Assembly: GCA_021818955.1 (NCBI GenBank)
Contig: JAKASR010000004.1
Span: forward strand, 1 to 64,000
Direction: 5' to 3'
Source: Acidobacteriota bacterium
GTDB lineage: Bacteria; Acidobacteriota; Terriglobia; Terriglobales; SCQP01
Length of the DNA: 64,000 nt
Part shown: positions 4,660-63,804 of the stretch, one piece after another
Position numbering within the stretch: the stretch's first letter is position 1
How the letters are laid out: every line of letters starts with the position of its first letter
Notes under the pieces: generated by a model
What the model was told of the DNA's origin: nothing
Seen by the model: only the letters and a program-made list of their open reading frames with translations
Databases searched by the model: none
Translations under genes and position numbers: made by a program

Positions 4660-4763
4660 GCGGCGCGGCCGCTTTTACTTTTAGGCGCAGACGCTTTCGC
4701 AAAGGTCCGGCCGAAACCGGACGCAGGGCGAAAACTGCTGCCCGACTCGGCCGTTAACGCTTT
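4660..4763 (+). repeat. Dispersed hairpin element, copy 1 (module A plus terminal end)
   Basis: It begins GCGGC GCG GCCGC followed by TTTTACTTTTAGGCGC, continues into the GTCCGG/CCGGAC hairpin (flanked by TTTCGC and GCGAAA), then jumps straight to the terminal sequence ending GACTCGGCCGTTAACGCTTT. The central B module and the GGCAATTTC hairpin are absent, as if deleted cleanly. It lies between two genes on the minus strand. Confidence 0.8.
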
Positions 4764-8189: not shown

Positions 8190-8452
8190 GCGGCTCGGCC
8201 GCTTTTACTTTTAGGCGCTGACGCTTTCGCAAAGGTCCGGCCGAAACCGGACACATGGCGAATACTCATGGCTGCCGAAAGTTTATTGTCGTTCATAGGC
8301 GCGGGACCTAACCGGAACCCCGCGCGAAACCGGCCTGCGGGCATGGCTGGAGGCAATTGCTTCGAAATTGATAATGTTTAGGCAATTTCTCCGAAATTGC
8401 CACTGACGAAAACTGCTGTCCGACTCGGCCGTTAACGTTTCAGGCGGGGTGA
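8190..8452 (+). repeat. Dispersed hairpin element, copy 2 (full A-B-C form)
   Basis: This is the most complete copy. In order: GCGGCTCGGCCGC plus T-run; TTTCGC...GTCCGG/CCGGAC...GGCGAA hairpin; GGCGCGGG...CCCCGCGC hairpin (about 8298-8325); two tandem versions of the GGCAATTTC...GAAATTGCC hairpin (first one degraded, second perfect at about 8381-8401); terminal GACTCGGCCGTTAACG. It fills most of the 426-bp divergent gap between the Omp85 gene and the carboxypeptidase; the rest of the gap (8096-8189, 8453-8557) shows nothing I recognise. Read in frame it encodes a spurious peptide starting RPLLLLGADAFAKVRPKPD. Confidence 0.85.
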
Positions 8453-8557: not shown

Positions 8558-8635
8558 GCGGCCCGGCCGCTTTTACTTTTAGGCGCTGACGCTTTCGCAA
8601 AGGTCCGGCCGAAACCGGACGCAGGGCGAATACTC
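8558..8635 (+). repeat. Dispersed hairpin element, copy 3 (module A only)
   Basis: GCGGC CCG GCCGC, the T-run, AGGCGCTGACGC and the GTCCGG/CCGGAC hairpin are present, then the copy ends at GGCGAATACTC, directly abutting the signal-sequence codons of the carboxypeptidase gene. The B and C modules are missing. The element therefore forms the immediate upstream region, and possibly the ribosome binding site (GCAGGG), of that gene. Confidence 0.8.
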
Positions 8636-13337: not shown

Positions 13338-13340
13338 GAA

Positions 13341-13487
13341 ATAGGCGCGGAACTTAACCGGAACCCCGCGCGAACCCGGCCTGTGGGCATGGCTGCAGGC
13401 AATTTCTCCGAAATTGAATATGCTGCTGGCAATTTCTCCGAAATTGCCAATGACGAAAACTGCTGCCCGACTCGGCCGTTAACGCTT
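13341..13487 (+). repeat. Dispersed hairpin element, copy 4 (B-C form, module A missing)
   Basis: It starts at ATAGGCGCGG a few bases after the M1 peptidase stop, holds the GGCGCGG/CCCCGCGC hairpin, then two tandem GGCAATTTCTCCGAAATT units (about 13399 and 13431; the second is closed by GCC), and ends ACTCGGCCGTTAACGCTT. The duplicated small hairpin also occurs in copy 2. The rest of this 323-bp gap up to acnA holds an inverted repeat and a promoter-like site. Confidence 0.8.
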
Positions 13488-16483: not shown

Positions 16484-16521
16484 GCGGCTCGGCCACACTC
16501 AGTTTTAGGCGCTGAGCCACC
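16484..16521 (+). repeat. Degenerate module A of the dispersed element between convergent genes
   Basis: GCGGCTCGGCC is followed by a diverged stretch and then TTTTAGGCGCTGAGCC. GGCTC and GAGCC can pair across the T-run. It sits in the 129-bp gap between the 3' ends of acnA and the ABC-F gene, where a bidirectional terminator would be expected. Confidence 0.5.
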
Positions 16522-24249: not shown

Positions 24250-24295
24250 CCGGCACAGCTGCCTTTATTTTTAGGCGCTAACGCTCACCCCATCA
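24250..24295 (+). repeat. Degenerate start of the dispersed element after the UxaA-type gene
   Basis: CTGCCTTTATTTTTAGGCGCTAACGCTCACCCCATCA resembles the T-run and AGGCGC part of module A, in particular the variant at 56441. The hairpin arms are lost. The remainder of the gap to 24519 shows no gene; short runs of C and T only. Confidence 0.4.
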
Positions 24296-24896: not shown

Positions 24897-24977
24897 GAAA
24901 GCGGCTCGGCCGCTTTTACTTTCAGGCGCTGACACTTTCGCCAAGCGTCCGGCCGAAGCCGGATGCTTGGCGAAAAC
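24897..24977 (+). repeat. Dispersed hairpin element, copy 5 (module A; long near-perfect hairpin)
   Basis: The element fills the 92-bp gap between two convergent stop codons. AAAGCGGC TCG GCCGCTTT with TTTTACTTT is terminator-like. The second hairpin is the best of all copies: TTTCGCCAAGCGTCCGG (24936-24952) pairs with CCGGATGCTTGGCGAAA (24959-24975), 17 pairs with one G-T, around CCGAAG. Position and structure suit a bidirectional terminator. Confidence 0.85.
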
Positions 24978-24985
24978 TTCAGGAA

Positions 24986-30318: not shown

Positions 30319-30540
30319 GCGGCTCGGCCGCTTTTACTTTTAGGCGCTGACGCTTTGGCAAATGTCCGACCGAAGCCGGACGCTTTGCGAAAACTCATAG
30401 CTGCCGAAAGTTTTTTTGTCGTTAATAGGCGCGGGATCTAAAAGGAACCCCGCGCAAACCCGGCCTGCGAGCATGGCTGAAGGCAATTTCTCCGAAATTG
30501 CTTCTGACGAAAACTTCTGTCCGACTCGGCCGTTAACGCT
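30319..30540 (+). repeat. Dispersed hairpin element, copy 6 (full A-B-C) inside the nad cluster
   Basis: GCGGCTCGGCCGC and T-run; TTTGGCAAATGTCCG with CCGGACGCTTTGCGAAA; GGCGCGGG/CCCCGCGC; GGCAATTTCTCCGAAATTGC; ending ACTCGGCCGTTAACGC. The last base touches the stop codon of nadC. In the direction of nad transcription the order is reversed: the terminal module comes first and the terminator-like module last, just before nadA. Confidence 0.85.
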
Positions 30541-31422
30541 TCAGGCTGCCGGTCCGGGGCCGAGCCGCAGACTGAAATCAGCCGCCGGAGCAGAATGCGT
30601 CAAGGCGCCGGCGCTGATTTCGGCGATGCCGGCTTCGGCGTAGGCGCGCACGTTTTGCAGGCGAACGCCGCCCGAGACTTCCAAGCGCATATCCGCGCCG
30701 ACAGCGAGAGCGGCGGCGCGCACCTCTTCGGGGGTCATATTATCCAGGAGCAGCCAGCGCGCGCCCACTGCCCGCGCGGCGCGCACTTCATCCAGGGTTC
30801 GGACTTCGATTTCGATCGTTTCGGGCGCATAGCTCCGGCGCGCAGCCCGAAAAGCCTGCTCCACTCCGCCGGCCAGGGCCAAATGATTATTTTTGATCAG
30901 TACGCCGCCAGCGAGATGGGGGCGATGATTCACGCCTCCACCGATGCGCACCGCATATTTTTCCAGTTCGCGCAGGCCAGGCGTGGTTTTGCGCGTATCG
31001 AGAATGCGCGCGCCCGTGCCGGCGACGGCGGCGACGAAACGGGCGGTTTGAGTGGCGATGCCGGAAAGATGCTGAATAAAATTCAGCAATGTTCGCTCCG
31101 CCGCCAACAAGGCGCGAGCCGAGCCGGCTAACTGCGCCACGAGCTGGCCCTCATTGAGCTCATCGCCATCGCTGGCATAAAGGGCCACGACGCGCGCCTG
31201 CCAATCTTCATTTTCAGTTGCCCTGGCCAGAGTCGCCAATTCCCGCAACAGCGGCTCGATCAATCCCAGTCCGGCCAAGCGGCAGCGCTGGCGGCAGAGC
31301 AGGCGGGCTTGAGCGTGCGTGCCGGGCGGAATCAAGGCCGAGGAAGTGGCGTCCTCGCCGGCGTGATCTTCACGCAGGGCGGCACGAAGCAGTTCGCTGA
31401 CCGGCTTGGAGTTCCAATCCAT
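30541..31422 (-). CDS. nadC: Nicotinate-nucleotide pyrophosphorylase (carboxylating)
   Basis: Quinolinate phosphoribosyltransferase, making nicotinate mononucleotide. The 293 residues include TLLNFIQHLSGIATQT, the substrate loop ARILDTRKTTPGLRELEKYA, GGGVNHRPHLAGGVLIKNNH and the barrel strands EIEVRTLDEV and LLLDNMTPEEV. Normal length. First gene of nadC-nadA-nadB on the minus strand; its last codon abuts the repeat copy, so the stop codon lies at the element border. Confidence 0.93.
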   Translation of the reverse strand: MDWNSKPVSELLRAALREDHAGEDATSSALIPPGTHAQARLLCRQRCRLAGLGLIEPLLRELATLARATENEDWQARVVALYASDGDELNEGQLVAQLAGSARALLAAERTLLNFIQHLSGIATQTARFVAAVAGTGARILDTRKTTPGLRELEKYAVRIGGGVNHRPHLAGGVLIKNNHLALAGGVEQAFRAARRSYAPETIEIEVRTLDEVRAARAVGARWLLLDNMTPEEVRAAALAVGADMRLEVSGGVRLQNVRAYAEAGIAEISAGALTHSAPAADFSLRLGPGPAA

Positions 31423-31481: not shown

Positions 31482-31741
31482 CGATTTGGCCGCTTTTACT
31501 TTTTTGCGTGATTTTCGCTTCGGCGGCACCGCGGCGGCTCAACTATTTTTTTGCGGCTCGGCCGCTTTTACTTTTAGGCGCTGACGCTTTCGCAAACGTC
31601 CGGCCGAAGCCGGACTCTTTGCGAAAACTCATGGCTGCCGAAAGTTTATTTTCGTTAATAGGTGCGGGACCTAACAGGAACCCCGCGCTTCGGCCTGCGA
31701 TTTCGGACGAATACTTCTATCCGACTCGGCCGTTAACGCTT
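31482..31741 (+). repeat. Dispersed hairpin element, copy 7 with an extra partial 5' end
   Basis: A partial start (GATTTGGCCGCTTTTACTTT, about 31482) precedes the main copy at 31553: GCGGCTCGGCCGC, T-run, TTTCGCAAACGTCCGG with CCGGACTCTTTGCGAAA, GGTGCGGG/CCCCGCGC (one G-T pair), then a shortened C module without the GGCAATTTC hairpin, ending ACTCGGCCGTTAACGCT. The stop codon of the 2'-5' RNA ligase-like gene is the TTA (TAA on minus) inside this end. It fills most of the 310-bp gap to nadC. Confidence 0.85.
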
Positions 31742-33594: not shown

Positions 33595-34650
33595 TCAAGC
33601 GCCCCAGGGCAGAGGCAGGCCGGGTTCCGGCCAGGGGAGAAAATACAAACCGGTGTGAGTCGCCAGAATCAGGGCAGGACCGCGGGCGAAAGCCAGACCC
33701 ACCAGATTTTGCCCGCTGAGCACCAATTCTGCCTCGCGATGGGGATGAATGCGCACCAAGCCGCGGCGCCCGCGCAGCGAAGCGGCGACATAGAGGTTGC
33801 CGGCGGCGTCGAAAGCCATTCCTTGAGGCCGGCCGAGGCCGCGAAAGAAAATATCCACCCCGCCTTTGGGGGAGATGCGGTAAATGGGATCGTAGCTGGA
33901 GGTGGTCGGACCCGAAACATACAGATCGCCGGCGGCATCGAAGGCGAGATGATAGGCGGCGACGCTGGGCTCGAGCGTAGCGAAGACGAAGATATTGCGG
34001 TTGCAGTCGAGTTTGAAAATAGTGCCGCTGCGGTCGCCCACGTAGAGATTGCCTTCCGCGTCGAAAGCCAGGCCGGTGGCGATGCCGAGGCCTTCGGCAT
34101 GCACGCTCACCTCGCCATTGCGCTCGACGCGATAGACGATGCCATCATGACGGCTACTGACGAACAACTGGCCCTCGCGATCGAAAGCCAGGCCGGTGGG
34201 ACTGACGATGGCCGCGCCTAGCGGCTTGAGATTGTAACTGGCATCGAGTTGATAAAGGCTCACCGGCACTTTTTGCCCGCGTCCGCCGCTGAAGGTCACA
34301 TAGATATTCCCGTCAGGATCGAGGGCGGGATTCGAGACCGGGTGCAGGTTATCGGCAATGGGCAGCGCCACGTCGAGATAGAGCGAATTGCCGGAGGCGC
34401 TCTCGCCGCCATCCAGCACCTGCACCGCGCCGGAGAGCGCACCTTCCGGCACGCGGGCGGTTAAAAATTCGCCGCCGGACATGACGATGCTGCCCGGCAG
34501 CCCGCCAAATCGAATTTCGGGCAGACGCCCGGCGCGCAATGTGATCCCTTCCACGCGCACCTCGCCGCCAGGCAACGCGGCAGGCGGGGAGAGCCGGCGC
34601 TCGCGAGCATGCTTTTCCGTGGAAGTTTCCGGCTTGGATGTGCCTTTCAT
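33595..34650 (-). CDS. NHL/SMP-30-type beta-propeller protein
   Basis: The start at MKGTSKPETSTEK (351 residues) is preferred over the Arg-rich upstream frame. After about 30 polar residues comes an IPT/TIG-like strand region (VEGITLRAGRLPEIRFGG...), then repeats of the type GLAFDAEGNLYVGDRSGTI, LAFDAAGDLYVSGPT and GMAFDAAGNLYVAAS, the blades of an NHL propeller. No signal peptide is evident. Such proteins act as scaffolds or lactonases; function is open. Twenty-one bases before cinA, so it heads the minus-strand run. Confidence 0.75.
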   Translation of the reverse strand: MKGTSKPETSTEKHARERRLSPPAALPGGEVRVEGITLRAGRLPEIRFGGLPGSIVMSGGEFLTARVPEGALSGAVQVLDGGESASGNSLYLDVALPIADNLHPVSNPALDPDGNIYVTFSGGRGQKVPVSLYQLDASYNLKPLGAAIVSPTGLAFDREGQLFVSSRHDGIVYRVERNGEVSVHAEGLGIATGLAFDAEGNLYVGDRSGTIFKLDCNRNIFVFATLEPSVAAYHLAFDAAGDLYVSGPTTSSYDPIYRISPKGGVDIFFRGLGRPQGMAFDAAGNLYVAASLRGRRGLVRIHPHREAELVLSGQNLVGLAFARGPALILATHTGLYFLPWPEPGLPLPWGA

Positions 34651-56440: not shown

Positions 56441-56676
56441 GCGGCTCGGCCGCTTTTACTTTTAGGCGCAAACGCTCGCCCCATCACGCGCGTCATCGTG
56501 ATGGGAAATCGATCTAACTTTGTTTGGCGCAATTCTTGTCTTGCGGAAATTGCTTATTTTGGCGCGGGATCCGCCCGCCGCGGAAACCCTGCGCTTTGGC
56601 CTGTGGACATCACTTCGGGCAATTTCCTCGAATCGCCAATGACATGAGCGGCTATCCGACTTGGCCGTTAATGCTT
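56441..56676 (+). repeat. Dispersed hairpin element, copy 8 (variant hairpin 2)
   Basis: The ends are conserved (GCGGCTCGGCCGC plus T-run; GACTTGGCCGTTAATGC), but hairpin 2 has an unrelated stem at the same place: CCCATCACG (56480-56488) and CGTGATGGG (56497-56505), nine perfect pairs. Modules B and C are present but diverged (GGCGCGGG...CCCTGCGC; GGGCAATTTCCTCGAATCGCC). It starts 10 bases after the M16 stop. Confidence 0.8.
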
Positions 56677-63641: not shown

Positions 63642-63727
63642 GCAAAACCCTTGGCAATCATCGTTCAGCTTTTAGCTTCCAGCTAAAGCCAATAGCTCCA
63701 GGCAAAATCGCCGGCAAAAAACCGAGA

Positions 63728-63804
63728 GTATTCGCCATGCGTCCGGTTTCGGCCGGACCATGGCGAAAGCGTCAGCGCCTAAAAGTAAAAGCGGCCGAGC
63801 CGCT
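63728..63804 (-). repeat. Dispersed hairpin element, copy 9 (module A, inverted)
   Basis: The only clear copy in reverse orientation. On the plus strand it reads TTCGCCATGCGTCCGG-TTTCGG-CCGGACCATGGCGAA (15 pairs, one bulged C), then GTCAGCGCCTAAAAGTAAAA and GCGGC CGA GCCGC. The stem letters CCATG/CATGG differ from CCAAG/CTTGG of copy 5. It lies upstream of xerC. Confidence 0.85.

Follow-up and report, generated by a model that had tools for sequence, protein, structure and literature searches.

A dispersed, modular multi-hairpin repeat family in an Acidobacteriota genome whose orientation follows the residual AT skew

The REP, REPIN and BIME repeats that are associated with RAYT (TnpA_REP) proteins are, in the portions of the literature available to us, high-copy, modular and lineage-specific intergenic hairpins which are presumed to move in single-stranded form (PMC3116915, PMC3733652, PMC6006769). 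CGTC-tagged REPs are palindromic repeats without a dedicated transposase according to the available portion of their description, and strand locking is not among the features which that portion lists (PMC3733652). The BOX elements of Streptococcus pneumoniae combine fixed ends with variable internal hairpin modules; they are intergenic, parasitic and 67–637 bp long, carry inverted repeats at their termini, duplicate the target site, and occupy the leading strand in 60.8% of cases, mirroring the gene bias (PMC3049150). Members of IS200/IS605 insert at replication forks with a strand bias, and the rare class 3 HUH genes of Planctomycetes and Acidobacteria are flanked by atypical, CnGA-footed structures, of which Solibacter usitatus holds about 600 copies (PMC6006769). 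The repeat family compared with these systems in this study was noticed in a 64,000-nt stretch of an Acidobacteriota genome (contig C41, positions 1–64000), referred to as the window.

The source genome (G000) measures 3.80 Mb, is 96% complete and fragmented into 47 contigs, and up to 4% of it may be missing. Scanning 1.64 Mb (43%), composed of stretches partly picked for holding hits, with an nhmmer profile built from full copies, following the nhmmer search with one copy that the original prediction had proposed, yielded 312 hits representing 232 elements, whereas the reversed sequence gave none. The end motif CGGCCGTTAACGCTT, allowing at most one mismatch, occurred 276 times genome-wide and twice in the reversed control. 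Accordingly, the genome is estimated to hold about 440 elements when scaled by the end motif and about 540 when scaled by length, the lower value being the safer one because the scanned stretches were partly chosen for their hits. Elements range from 78 to 300 nt, and their density is about 14 per 100 kb. Family matches were identified in five of 120 genomes of the order (G000, G001, G002, G007, and G008), which belong to one family and three genera, two of them besides the source genus. A gapped pattern run against 84,980 species genomes, a collection that may leave out the source genome itself, recovered the records of G001 and G008 plus two weak or chance hits, and viral, plasmid and phage collections held no match to the element. 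For 27 elements compared by eye with G001, orthologous places were generally not shared, the intergenic alignments being divergent.

All nine copies named for the window were found where they had been placed, with refined limits (Table 1). Inspection of the copies and their consensus also bore out the block order, the doubling or loss of hairpin blocks, and the constant end GGCCGTTAACGCTT. Two points had been overlooked. Block A also forms a complete short element whose 3' end is its own, and the element truly stops at ..ACGCTT, the conserved G found four bases beyond it belonging to the target. The statement that no copy lies wholly within a gene was nearly right: with genes called by a simple codon-usage script, on which the figures for gene overlap and gene strand are based, one of the 232 elements has over 90% of its length within a predicted gene, and one clean insertion sits in a duplicated gene fragment. 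Since copies occur outside the window, no Rfam match exceeded the gathering score, and no Y1/RAYT gene was detected in the genome, the original prediction of a modular, dispersed multi-hairpin family stands, and it extends beyond the window and into related genera. The window also contains, in a minus-strand gene, four degenerate coding repeats of 49 nt spaced by 120–129 nt, which resemble beta-propeller blade repeats.

Table 1. Positions of the element copies in the window and of further loci in the source genome.
Feature	Position	Strand	Next four bases	Remark
Element, block A fused directly to common 3' end	4660-4762	+	TGGG	
Long element, two slot-2 hairpins	8190-8440	+	CAGG
Short element (78 nt), block A alone	8558-8635	+	TTGG	Ends ATACTC
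5'-truncated element: B, two C hairpins, 3' end	13340-13487	+	ATTG
Decayed piece of element	about 16484-16515
Decayed 5' fragment of element	24251-24286	+		E=0.0012
Short element	24901-24979	+	CAGG	Ends AAACTT
Long element, one slot-2 hairpin	30319-30541	+	CAGG
Core element (189 nt) without slot hairpins	31553-31741	+	ATAG
Degenerate coding repeats	33788-34208	-		In a minus-strand gene
Diverged long element	56441-56676	+	TGAG
Short element, inverted relative to other window copies	63726-63803	-	TCGG
Tandem array within element	C22:2520-2887
Tandem array within element	C6:74932-75246
Tandem array within element	C6:105456-105834
Nested insertion into another family copy	C26:41652
RT-Cas1 fusion (698 aa) and cas6-like gene	C28:103520-106388			Locus L116
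Segmental duplication	C29:278270-280000
Element in filled site (219 nt)	C29:278483-278701
Empty site	C29:279713-279832

The core of the element comprises 189 nt, which form three folded domains and offer two slots for extra hairpins of about 30 nt. The first hairpin, GCGGC-NCG-GCCGC, is flush with the 5' end and is followed by a long hairpin domain, while the third domain is a three-way structure closed by CGTTAA/TTAACG and bearing GGCGCGGG/CCCCGCGC and CGGAC/GTCCG; the core ends in CTT, and the two element ends are not inverted repeats of each other. Slot 1 holds up to about five tandem copies of the hairpin GCAATTCC/GGAATTGC and slot 2 zero to three copies of GGCAATTTC/GAAATTGCC, both in steps of about 30 nt. 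Block A by itself makes up the separate short element, which is 78 nt long and ends in ATACTC. Elements of the related genomes carry quite different hairpins at comparable positions. Tandem arrays within elements were observed on C22 and C6, with three block A copies in head-to-tail order and slot-1 units of 30 nt repeated up to about five times, representing potential typing loci.

Conservation of the fold was evaluated on 11 cores from four species and three genera, using a 35-pair structure. Standard pairs were found in 91.6% of the cells, compared to 30–40% when the columns were slid by one to three positions; two-sided stem changes amounted to 12 cells (5.6 in shuffles), and the covariation score was matched by none of 500 shuffles. 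The closing stem reads CGTTAA/TTAACG in the source genome, CGTTCA/TGAACG in G008, and GCCAG/CTGGC in G002, the latter being read from the sequences at a stem that the automatic alignment splits. The terminal hairpin, with the genomes in the same order, reads TCGGAC/GTCCGA, TCGCATT/AATGCGA, and TCGAACT/AGTTCGA. Folded as single-stranded DNA, the core copy of the window reached z-scores of -5.5 (top strand) and -6.6 (bottom strand). Stem mismatches in copies of the source genome are about equally distributed between A-C (117) and G-T (91), which indicates that inserted copies decay with no selection acting on either strand's fold. We infer that the fold matters for the spreading of the element and not for the host.

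A joint could be read directly on contig C29, where a duplicated coding segment exists in an empty and a filled version. The filled site reads CGCCGCGCAA, the 219-nt element, and TCGGCACC, with neither a target-site duplication nor the loss of a base. As the duplicated flanks are 97–99% identical, the insertion is most likely recent, precise excision being the less likely alternative. The segmental duplication itself is recent, studded with elements, and possibly repeat-mediated. The nested insertion on C26 reads CGGCCGTT, insertion, AACG. The case for clean insertion draws on a single complete empty site, a single nested one, and flank statistics, in which target-site duplications at the joints were as frequent as in shuffled data.

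The empty site also revealed that the four bases past the 3' end belong to the target. Three free bases and then a G follow 166 of the 181 end motifs, and the G at +4 was found for long elements (86 of 91), for short elements despite their different 3' sequence (36 of 40), and for all nine window copies. The related genomes agree, with 2/2 in G002 and, by reading of the printed ends, 6/6 in G001 and 7/7 in G008, the final base of the end itself being variable in G008. The target rule consists of a weakly A-rich left side, the insertion point, three free bases, and G; it represents one strong base with weak neighbours and not a full tetranucleotide. No convincing guide-type covariation was detected between the three free bases and either the element or the left flank.

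Element pairs 3–30 kb apart are co-oriented in 87–88% of cases, compared to 51% for genes. Three contigs carry their elements almost exclusively on one strand (C6, 28/28; C22, 15/15; C46, 22/23), with genes split about evenly. An orientation directed by genes was rejected, because no relation to the adjacent genes was observed (same strand as the upstream gene in 112 of 228 cases and as the downstream gene in 125 of 228). Target composition was likewise dismissed as the cause of the strand lock, since the target preference, when applied to the surrounding intergenic DNA, predicts an agreement of 0.496. The residual AT skew, i.e., the skew at third codon positions after removal of the gene-strand effect, was used as a proxy for replication direction rather than as a mapped origin or terminus, and its sign equals that of the net orientation of the elements in 42 of the 44 informative bins of 20 kb (Spearman 0.78), including places where skew and elements both flip inside one contig. 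For individual elements, agreement was obtained in 210 of 232 cases (contig sign-flip p = 0.0005), and circular shifts within the five mixed contigs reached the observed agreement in none of 1000 trials. The minus-strand copy of the window lies near a sign change of the skew of its contig.

When genes on both strands share a residual skew, this usually reflects asymmetric replication. The lock is therefore most likely caused by insertion that is coupled to one of the two fork strands, and the orientation probably follows the direction of DNA copying. GC skew agrees with element orientation weakly and noisily (64%), for which reason the fork strand is given here without a leading or lagging label; marker genes naming the leading strand were too few in the scanned contigs. 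On C12, C14, C28, and C41, the residual AT skew flips together with the elements every 60–150 kb, and such frequent sign changes suggest many inversions or an unusual replication layout.

The clean empty site, the target rule common to the two forms, and the skew-matched orientation all argue for mobility. We therefore consider the family, with a probability of roughly 0.6, to represent a non-autonomous mobile DNA element inserted as a single strand at the replication fork by an enzyme acting in trans. Copies would enter the single-stranded DNA that one strand of the fork exposes, and the enzyme, which is not a recognisable Y1 protein in the source genome, may read the folded strand together with the G at a distance of four bases, by analogy to the Y1-HUH proteins of IS200/IS605. 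Viewed from the bottom strand, the site would be CNNN followed by the element's 5' end. Insertions into genes would be lost, so that the remaining copies avoid them. Several observations speak against this reading: no Y1 protein is detectable in the source genome, the G001 RAYT has no element beside it, the skew flips within contigs need inversions, GC skew agrees weakly, the flank signal amounts to one strong base, full empty and nested sites number one each, and the mismatch balance indicates that neither strand's fold is preserved after insertion.

The absence of a Y1 gene, proposed for the window, holds for the genome, since PF01797 had no candidate in the whole source genome even at a loose first look. 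Y1 proteins were present in 25 of 31 sampled genomes of the class, the source genome being among the few without any candidate. Linkage to a RAYT gene was not confirmed: no element adjoins the sole RAYT locus of G001. Open frames with HUH and Y motifs were absent from the 1.64 Mb of the source genome and from 0.73 Mb of its relatives. An autonomous parent, with 5' part, gene and 3' part on the same strand, was also sought, and rejected: candidate spans held housekeeping-like genes or nothing. Tentatively, the family could be locked to a replication strand and moved, in single-stranded form, by an enzyme that belongs to none of the known Y1/Y2 HUH, DDE, and reverse-transcriptase groups and reads a three-domain DNA fold, with its exchangeable hairpin slots, plus one G four bases from the joint. 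By analogy, the class 3 HUH proteins may be the most attractive lead. A specific form of fork insertion would make the family a REP-like dependant of these proteins (PMC6006769), which come from the same phylum, are accompanied by non-GTAG structures in similar copy number, and would supply the predicted single-strand enzyme; given the lack of HUH+Y frames in the DNA scanned and of PF01797 candidates genome-wide, this is rather unlikely.

Strong polarity over 100-kb scales that is blind to genes, together with the high density, would also be expected of a chromosome-architecture signal, for which elements spread by any route are retained in one orientation as a direction marker (like Chi or KOPS) for repair, segregation, or termination. 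We regard this as improbable, since short, long, and decayed forms are similarly polar (84–91%) without a common short core motif, copies are generally not at orthologous sites in the sister species, and three free bases followed by G is a property of insertion and not of a signal.

RNA-based, SINE-like spread, in which the transcript folds and is copied by a reverse transcriptase at the fork with a nascent strand as primer, would likewise yield a strand lock without duplication, and it is in line with the RNA fold (z = -2.9) and the covarying stems. However, the sole reverse transcriptase found in the source genome is an RT-Cas1 fusion beside a gene resembling cas6, none was detected in the family carriers G001, G007, and G008, no poly-A or other 3' priming signature was seen, and the stem mismatches lack a G-U bias, making this route very unlikely. 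The RT-Cas1 locus itself is, judged by its sequence, a putative RNA-acquiring type III CRISPR adaptation module. That selection retains the elements at gene ends as terminators or as stabilisers of mRNA is hardly credible: the first hairpin and T-run resemble an intrinsic terminator and convergent gaps hold a mild excess (49 elements compared to about 33 expected by intergenic length), but orientation is independent of neighbouring genes and copies also occupy divergent and tandem gaps, as originally noted.

Several bacterial repeat families, e.g., the CGTC REPs, have no known mover. The exact joint, the target rule, the empty site, a fold covarying across three genera, and the strong lock make the question of the mover directly testable for the family described here. 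Should the strand lock hold against a mapped origin, the repeats would represent a fossil record of replication direction and inversions, useful in genomes with weak GC skew.

For each of the described systems BOX, REP/REPIN, and IS200/IS605, at least one of the defining features that were tested is absent from the family. A MITE of the DDE type was rejected, as the element has neither terminal inverted repeats nor target-site duplications, and so was a group II intron or other retroelement, as no cognate reverse transcriptase was found (RT-Cas1 only, in the source genome). ERIC sequences are imperfect palindromes of about 127 bp which likewise lie between genes and contain internal insertions, and to our knowledge neither the strand lock nor the target rule has been reported for them. 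The class 3 HUH structures are, compared by description, likewise acidobacterial, atypical, and present in up to about 600 copies, but they are defined by a CnGA foot and a linked gene, and no gene linkage was found for the present family. REP/REPIN are nearest in lifestyle, both being high-copy, intergenic, modular, and lineage-specific. However, REPs are short, GTAG-footed and RAYT-linked, whereas the elements studied here measure 78–300 nt and have several domains; the consensus shows no GTAG/GTGG or CGTC foot on a 20–65 nt hairpin at their ends, and no RAYT gene flanked by the repeat was found in G000 or G001. CGTC REPs, in the available portion of their description, are single, short hairpins that bear a CGTC tag and, for the most part, a CCA tail; the family shows none of these features. 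BOX is nearest in modular build, but the elements of this study have no inverted ends and no duplications, and their lock of about 90% comes without a gene bias. In joint and strand behaviour, IS200/IS605 is the nearest system, sharing the lack of target duplication (as seen at the C29 empty site), the subterminal hairpins, the retained flanking target bases, and, probably, a strand-biased insertion at forks. In contrast to IS200/IS605, the family has no transposase gene, no cognate Y1 TnpA having been detected in the source genome, and it features one conserved flanking base instead of a tetranucleotide and a three-domain fold with variable hairpin slots.
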